DNA of 64,000 nt from Candidatus Physcocola equi (lineage in GTDB: Bacteria > Bacteroidota > Bacteroidia > Bacteroidales > Paludibacteraceae): positions 1-64,000 of the forward strand of contig JAGHUM010000003.1 in assembly GCA_018064855.1 (NCBI GenBank). The letters are read 5' to 3'. Positions 37,671 through 63,275 of this stretch are shown here, piece after piece. Under the pieces are notes generated by a model that made no database searches, was not told where the DNA came from, and was given only the letters and a program-made list of their open reading frames with translations. A program made the translations under genes and the position numbers. Positions within the stretch are counted from its first letter, which is position 1, and every line of letters begins with the position of its first letter.

Positions 37671-38372
37671 ATGAATAAGACAATATACACGCTGATCACA
37701 ATGCTGTTGATGGTTTGTGGAATAGAATGTTCCGCACAGACTGTTAGCGGACAAGTGGAAGGACACGACTATGTGGACCTTGGCTTACCAAGTGGCACCA
37801 AGTGGGCAACCTACAATATAGGTGCCACCAAGCCAACCGAATACGGCGACTACTTCGCCTGGGGGGAGACAAAACCACAAAGAGACTATAGTTGGGACTC
37901 CTATAAATGGTGCCATTATAAAAGTTCTGATGGCTACGGAGATCCAACAGATTTCAATAAGTATGTGACAGACAGCAAACGAGGAAGTGTCGATAATAAA
38001 ACTGTATTAGATGCAGAAGATGACGCTGCCACCACTAATTGGGGCAGTGCATGGCGCACGCCGACAGAAAAAGAAATGACGGAATTAAAAGATGGTTGCA
38101 ATTGGGAGTGGACGGACAACTATAACGAAACAAAAGTGACAGGAATGATAGGACGTTCTAAGACCAACGGCAATACAATTTTTCTACCAGCAGCACAAAG
38201 TAAGGATGATGAAATTTACACATCGAATGTCAACTATGGAAAATACCTGACGTGTTCACTTCACCAAAAAGAATCAATCCTAGCAATTTATCTCTTCATT
38301 GAAAAAGAAAAAATCGGATTTGGATACGACAGCAGATGTTATGGTATGACAGTAAGATCCGTCTTGAAGTAA
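37671..38372 (+). CDS. secreted FISUMP-type protein (Fibrobacter major paralogous domain-like)
   Basis: This 233-residue protein has a signal peptide (ending IECSAQ) and one domain beginning HDYVDLGLPSGTKWATYNIG, with YGDYFAWGET and WGSAWRTPTEKEM. These segments are typical of a family repeated many times in Prevotella, Bacteroides and Fibrobacter surface proteins. The domain is related to the sulfatase-modifying/C-type-lectin-like fold. Function is not known; binding at the cell surface is a guess. It has its own promoter and is followed by a MITE-like element 16 bp past the stop. Confidence 0.82.
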   Translation: MNKTIYTLITMLLMVCGIECSAQTVSGQVEGHDYVDLGLPSGTKWATYNIGATKPTEYGDYFAWGETKPQRDYSWDSYKWCHYKSSDGYGDPTDFNKYVTDSKRGSVDNKTVLDAEDDAATTNWGSAWRTPTEKEMTELKDGCNWEWTDNYNETKVTGMIGRSKTNGNTIFLPAAQSKDDEIYTSNVNYGKYLTCSLHQKESILAIYLFIEKEKIGFGYDSRCYGMTVRSVLK

Positions 38373-38388
38373 GAATCATAAAATTGGC

Positions 38389-38567
38389 TTAGAAGCTGTT
38401 TATATTTTTGCGAACTGCTTCTTTTGGGCTTTTTATAGGTCTTTTTCGTCCGTTTTGAGTGAATCTTCAGTCACAATGGGCATCCATTGCTCCTTTCAAA
38501 TCCACTTCAAAACATCCTGAAAAATACACACATATAAATCTCCAACAAAAATTGAAACAACTTCTAA
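38389..38567 (+). mobile_element. MITE-like element, copy 1 (about 179 bp)
   Basis: A non-coding block begins TTAGAAGCTGTTT and ends AAACAACTTCTAA, so its two ends are inverted copies (about 19 of 22 terminal bases pair). The inner part TTTTATAGGTCTTTTTCGTC, the GAGTGAATC and CACAATGGG segments and the CTCCAACAAAAATT segment recur in copy 2 at 57472. No transposase frame is inside. It follows the FISUMP gene and abuts a truncated reading frame. Confidence 0.75.
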
Positions 38568-38568
38568 G

Positions 38569-38709
38569 AATCACTCTGTTCCAAAATATGTTATTGATCC
38601 GGGAGAAATGAAGATGTGTGAGGAACTTGGCTATGTGCATATTAAGGAATCAGCTACAATAGGAATGAAAAAACTATTGGACTTGTTTAAGGAATTGCAG
38701 AATATATAA
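38569..38709 (+). pseudogene. C-terminal gene fragment cut off at the MITE-like element
   Basis: An open frame of 46 codons starts exactly at the element's right end and reads NHSVPKYVIDPGEMKM, CEELGYVHIKESATIGMKKL and LDLFKELQNI before a stop. It has protein-like composition, no start codon of its own in a sensible place and no promoter. I read it as the tail of a gene whose 5' part was lost at the insertion point. Family not recognised. The rest of the gap 38373-38841 holds the MITE and the promoter of the next gene. Confidence 0.4.
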
Positions 38710-57471: not shown

Positions 57472-57649
57472 AAGAAGCTGTTTAAATTTTTGCGAACTTT
57501 TTCTGTTGGGCTTTTTATAGGTCTTTTTCGTCTGTTTTGAGTGAATCCTCAGTCACAATGGGATTCCATTGCTCCTTTCAGATTCACAACAAAACATCCT
57601 GAAAAAATCCCTTATAAAAATCTCCAACAAAAATTCAAACAACTTCTAA
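57472..57649 (+). mobile_element. MITE-like element, copy 2 (about 178 bp)
   Basis: The same element as at 38389: begins AGAAGCTGTTTAAATTTTTG and ends CAAACAACTTCTAA, with the same inner TTTTATAGGTCTTTTTCGTC and GTGAATC...CACAATGGG segments. The ends are inverted copies of each other. It lies between the GH5 terminator and the regulator gene and has no coding frame of note. Together with its promoter region this accounts for the 385-bp gap 57370-57754. Confidence 0.75.
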
Positions 57650-63240: not shown

Positions 63241-63275
63241 TTAGAAGCTGTTTAAATTTTGCGAACTGCTTAGAT
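63241..63275 (+). mobile_element. terminal fragment of the MITE-like element
   Basis: TTAGAAGCTGTTTAAATTTT followed by GCGAACTGCTTAG matches the left end of copies 1 and 2, but the inner part and right end are missing. It lies directly before the MATE gene. A partial echo (TTTTGCGAACAACTTC) occurs at about 63137-63152. Confidence 0.55.

Follow-up and report, generated by a model that had tools for sequence, protein, structure and literature searches.

In Porphyromonas gingivalis, the MITEs BrickBuilt and MITEPgRS/MITE464 carry ends of the IS5 family, according to the accessible text of PMC4596501, and they are the nearest precedent for the element described here. As portrayed there, they resemble it in belonging to the Bacteroidales, in lying between genes, in lacking a transposase, and in sharing their terminal repeats with IS5-family insertion sequences (ISPg1, ISPg4, and ISPg9). 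MITECca01 of Cardinium (PMC9769881, available part) is likewise a MITE present in many copies in a genome of the Bacteroidota, and its parental IS can be identified. ERIC and Correia/NEMIS are, like the present element, short intergenic foldback repeats, and their transcripts form stable hairpins, as stated in the accessible portion of PMC10969869.

The present element was located in the window, a stretch of 64,000 nucleotides from Candidatus Physcocola equi, whose genome assembly (G000) was 2.99 Mb in 121 contigs and 90% complete. A preliminary description had proposed a non-coding 179-bp block with inverted ends, recurring elsewhere in the window and moved by a full-length IS outside it. The evidence below makes it very probable that the element is a non-autonomous, TIR-only ('type II') MITE mobilised in trans by an IS5-family transposase.

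Structure, copy number, and insertion sites

The 179-bp block had been placed correctly, and was composed of a 173-bp core flanked by two triplets. The features of the window were as follows.

38392–38564, + strand: core of MITE copy 1, 173 bp, GCGAAC-bearing end first
38389–38391, unstranded: left flanking target triplet TTA (TNA stood left and right of the element in 25 of the 33 rows of the own genome)
38565–38567, unstranded: right flanking target triplet TAA, its middle base differing from the left TTA
38392–38410, + strand: left terminal inverted repeat (TIR) GAAGCTGTTTATATTTTTG, common to IS5-family ends
38546–38564, − strand: right TIR, whose complement starts GAAGTTGTTTCAATTTTTG
38474–38489, unstranded: apical hairpin CAATGG-GCAT-CCATTG, the interior part that is most conserved between species
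57474–57646, + strand: MITE copy 2, flanked by TAA/TAA, 89% identical to copy 1
63241–63271, + strand: single-ended remnant with the left TIR only

The family ends were GAAGCTGTTTAAATTT and AAATTTAAACAACTTC. The ends first taken as matching in copy 1, TTAGAAGCTGTTT on the left and the complement TTAGAAGTTGTTT on the right, agreed at 12 of 13 positions but not at all of them, and the inverted arms reached 23 nt with 87% complementarity (38388–38410 and 38546–38568). Copy 1 thus combined a short length (173 bp), the lack of a transposase gene, and terminal inverted repeats (23-nt ends), as in other MITEs. Its GC content was 35%, versus 42% in the window. The non-coding character held, as no ORF of at least 25 aa lay wholly within copy 1; two short ORFs (50 and 57 aa) crossed its right edge. 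The element started 19 bp past the stop codon of a 233-aa ORF. The gene before it (37671–38372) was one of a set of paralogs that was matched many times in the congeneric genomes G002–G005, and a 33-codon ORF directly behind it (38608–38709) resembled the tail of a lost gene, which is a guess.

The shared body was not confined to the second copy in the window. At least 41 matches, one of merely 34 bp, were found in the own genome when 40 of 138 candidates were scored. The fetched stretches of this genome contained 56 distinct places of at least 60 bp, and addition of five places outside these stretches gave about 61. The 32 near-full-length rows, in which a few copies were present twice, had a mean pairwise identity of 91.7%. 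The end motif (at most one mismatch) occurred 55 + 56 times, versus 1 + 4 times for a reversed-pattern control. These many dispersed copies were mostly intergenic; only three of 45 rows (two copies counted twice) overlapped an ORF of at least 80 aa by a crude ORF caller. Minimal derivatives were also present, such as a pair of fused ends on C36 and a form of 40 bp on C103.

Two further arrangements were observed in the own genome. Back-to-back ends with one common triplet (GCTTCTTAGAAG) occurred at the end of L050 and at L049:888–910 (contigs C25 and C24), which suggests that one element was inserted beside another or that the two were joined head to head. A second repeat family (GTCTATATACAAGTTGGCAC..., for example L031:1–117 on C20) gave 60 matches in the genome and none in the window. 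It had inverted arms of up to about 70 bp, spaced roughly 50–170 bp, and sometimes directly adjoined a MITE copy (C55, C56, and C72).

In the alignment of the copies, the element was bounded by GAAG...CTTC, and TNA lay outside these borders. Identical TNA triplets flanked 19 of 33 rows in the own genome (shuffle mean 12.4, P 0.0015) and 10 of 15 rows in the congeneric genome G005 (shuffle mean 5.3, P 0.0028), counts in which one copy (L071) was entered twice; with TNA at nearly every flank, the shuffle was a conservative test. All identical flanking triplets in both genomes were TNA. The target duplications looked for in the flanks were therefore found at the level of the family but not at copy 1 of the window, whose triplets TTA/TAA are not an exact repeat; of the 32 remaining rows, 13 likewise lacked identical triplets. 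In G002, no MITE followed the ortholog of the upstream gene, and the downstream side was not alignable. When the flanks of 54 rows were joined, cross-junction matches were found only at loci with the same copies or within short end-motif stretches, so that neither comparison provided a clean empty site.

As 21 of the 56 places lay within 25 bp of a contig end, the repeat does break the assembly, and its copy number is probably underestimated; the family helps to explain the breaks in such assemblies. The same contig-end placement would fit an assembly artefact, or an ordinary intergenic repeat that recombination has spread. Such an origin is very improbable, since it is already contradicted by the many loci whose flanks are unique and bear TNA duplications, and the same element was present in the independent genome G005 and in a third genome.

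Probable IS5-family partner and distribution

Seven PF01609 matches were found in G000 and G005, and three of them lay between MITE-type ends (C103 and C27 of G000, and C49 of G005). Complete IS elements of about 920 bp were present in G005, G064, and G170, bounded by GAA(A/G)(C/T)TGTTTAAATTT and, at the opposite end, by GAAGCTGTTTAA(A/T)TTT.

G005:C49, 924 bp: flanks TAA/TAA, frame opening at 235 codons
G170:C8, 924 bp: flanks TTA/TTA, coding sequence split over two frames
G064:C25, about 928 bp: flanks TAA/TTA, intact open frame of 263 codons

The target type of these three elements, a small sample, was that of the MITE. Their ends, GAAGCTGTTTAAATTTTAG and GAAATTGTTTAAATTT, were those of the MITE and enclosed transposases matching NCBIfam NF033580 (IS5 family; E values of 1e-59 to 3e-63) and also PF01609/PF13340. 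The full-length IS with the same ends, sought on the advice of the preliminary description, was thus found in the genus and the family, and together with the copy number and the TNA duplications it bears out the view of a MITE moved by an IS absent from the window. The names ISL2 and IS1031 are associated with TNA targets. In the accessible parts of PMC7031236 and PMC3196728, no TNA target rule for these two was found.

The similarity between MITE and IS stopped after the terminal 15–18 bp, and the interiors were unrelated. The subterminal sequence that a Type I MITE has in common with its IS was not seen, and the MITE is therefore not a simple deletion product of the IS. In the proposed mechanism, an IS5-family transposase would recognise the terminal GAAG(C/T)TGTTTAAATTT repeats common to the MITE and the IS5 elements of about 920 bp, and would insert the MITE into TNA triplets to give a 3-bp duplication. 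From the common ends and targets, we infer that the IS5 transposase identified here may be the one that moved the MITE. Both IS copies with MITE ends in the own genome were damaged; the copy on C103 was without the middle of the protein and that on C27 was split over frames, and no intact transposase of this IS5 type was found in this genome. As the IS copies seen in the assembly are broken, it is probable that the MITE family is at rest in this genome or depends on an IS that the assembly lacks. A transposase fragment on C64, which adjoins a degenerate MITE copy, was rejected as the mover since common ends were not demonstrated.

Full-length matches among 61 genomes (the own genome and 60 relatives) were limited, besides the own genome, to the congeneric G005 at 79% identity, and G049 gave a 34-bp match only. 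G005 had its own version of the family, with at least 49 matches. Among 358 genomes of the family Paludibacteraceae, with two candidates scored per genome, nine matched the MITE, and three of these (G000, G005, and G140) contained it at full length. The IS was more widespread, as a protein search recovered transposase relatives, at all degrees of similarity, in 29 of 200 family genomes. The placement in Bacteroidales was borne out by G005, a genome of the same genus (Paludibacteraceae bacterium Horse_feces78). The 'Prevotella-type' origin was unsupported, as the named relatives of the own genome were Paludibacteraceae from horse faeces.

A search of the named collection with the apex pattern gave 15 stretches, 14 from Horse_feces78, matching G005, and one from Horse_feces81; no match to this pattern was found in viral contigs. 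By position, the Horse_feces81 copy was the single copy of G140, a genome of another genus. This copy (L176:6211–6384) was very like the G005 family, and it could represent a recent transfer or a misbinned contig.

A set of elements of similar size was found in G170, a genome of another genus (g27), in which the end motif occurred 114 + 118 times; 13 of 17 genomes searched had such matches. Thirty loci, drawn from 82 exact motif sites, were examined in G170. The elements were 187–193 bp long and had the same ends as the MITE with a different body. Identical TNA triplets flanked nine of the 10 listed elements shorter than 400 bp (12 were found), with one TGA/TGA. Three elements of 391–393 bp (L217, L221, and L226), whose outer parts matched the 190-bp element with about 200 bp extra inside, are a nested or longer form of it.

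Foldback structure and its conservation

The predicted RNA fold of copy 1 had an energy of −37.5 kcal/mol (z −3.6), which was equalled by one of 200 shuffles, and the MITE was predicted to fold on itself over its whole length. For the fold alignment, 45 copies (28 from G000, 16 from G005, and one from Horse_feces81) were used after removal of two duplicate rows and the degenerate copy L110. A strand-neutral self-alignment of the G000 consensus supplied the stem pairs, which were compared with the consensus of the other 17 rows. Among the 64 pairs, 50 were unchanged, eight were changed on both sides and still paired, one was changed to G.T, four were broken, and one was gapped. Double compensatory changes accounted for eight of the 13 changed pairs, with a shuffle mean of 2.3, and none of 20,000 shuffles reached eight. 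Over all rows, 133 double-changed cells were counted versus 51.4 in shuffles and 7–20 when slid; the consensus count is the safer one because the rows are related. A statistic of further pair types was unexceptional (73 of 500 shuffles as high). These results are strong evidence that the foldback pairing of the whole element was maintained between species.

Between the species, three columns among the 34 of the apex, TGAAAGGAGCAATGG..CCATTGTGACTGAA, were different, and these were confined to the loop; in the arms, 13 of 53 and 18 of 65 columns were different. Among copies, the apex was significantly conserved in G000 (P 0.002) and not in the G005 set (P 0.5). Within genomes, paired positions were about half as variable as unpaired ones, and changes were mainly one-sided, with 94 one-sided versus six double changes in G000 and 46 versus five in the G005 set. 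Since the changes within species contrast in this way with those between species, selection most likely falls on copies that are still proliferating and not on each inserted copy.

A pairing maintained along the whole length would also be expected of a regulatory repeat of the ERIC/NEMIS type, in which processing of a transcribed hairpin, by RNase III for instance, changes the stability of the mRNA, so that the fold is kept for the host. The ERIC and Correia precedents (PMC10969869, accessible portion), the intergenic positions, often close behind genes as at copy 1 of the window, and the better folding of one strand in every copy compared (31 of 31 and 16 of 16) are consistent with this function. 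However, the better-folding strand showed no excess of G.U pairs in the strand-neutral self-alignment, where mismatches were mostly A.G, and strand-specific RNA selection by G.U pairs was accordingly rejected. The orientation bias to co-directional neighbouring genes was weak and not convincing (22 versus 10 rows, with duplicates still included), an Rfam scan gave a chance-level match and none above the threshold, and inserted copies gained mainly one-sided changes (140, versus 11 double). A regulatory repeat kept for the host is thus rather unlikely.

Arm-to-arm correction is possible in any foldback. The compensatory pattern might then be mechanical and owe nothing to selection on the fold, if template switching or intrastrand repair lets one arm of a quasi-palindrome correct the other. 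The within-genome doubles exceeded chance, with six (three Watson–Crick) versus about 1.6 in G000 and five (all Watson–Crick) versus about 0.8 in G005, as such correction would produce. If it were frequent, however, many private doubles would be predicted, whereas the copies showed the above preponderance of one-sided changes, and the consensus pairs showed eight double changes versus five others. Mechanical correction as the source of the pattern is rather unlikely.

It is possible, as a tentative proposal, that the foldback is itself a working part, in that one IS5 type drives elements of about 175–195 bp across Paludibacteraceae with bodies differing by genus, all closing into full-length hairpins whose apical stem measures 6 bp, and that further proliferation is restricted to copies in which the hairpin is retained. 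If so, the hairpin, as DNA or as RNA from one strand, would be needed for mobility or for a tolerable insertion, beyond the ends. The maintained fold may serve mobility or an RNA, or it may be a by-product of copying between the arms. With two species and dozens of copies in each, the family is an unusually clean case for asking whether and why the internal hairpin of a MITE is selected.

Comparison with known elements

No description of this MITE family was found in the literature searched, and no paper was found with both 'Paludibacteraceae' and 'transposable'. The ends of the P. gingivalis MITEs are GAGAC(C/T)..TTGCA, whereas those of the present family are GAAG(C/T)TGTTTAAATTT; BrickBuilt contains a minisatellite and has irregular target duplications, as characterized in the same portion of its source, whereas the present element is a foldback of 173–176 bp with TNA duplications. 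MITECca01 has a parent of the IS982 family and was derived from a defective parent copy, as far as its source was available, whereas the present MITE shares only the ends with its IS5-family IS. ERIC and Correia/NEMIS, in the part of the source at hand, differ in sequences and taxa, and the hairpin of the present element is a predicted fold with covariation.

An IS5-family element on the Bacteroides fragilis plasmid CP103159 had a transposase 63.5% identical, with ends GAAACTGTTTTGAATT and GAAGCTGTTTTGATTT and TTA on both sides. This IS is autonomous and occurs in a different family of Bacteroidales, whereas the present element is non-autonomous. The putative IS5-type mover and its foldback passenger form a clear two-part system in an uncultured gut lineage. 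IS5-driven, TIR-only MITEs are already known, as in P. gingivalis, and the present family is a further example, of which the unusual feature is the strong evidence of fold maintenance.
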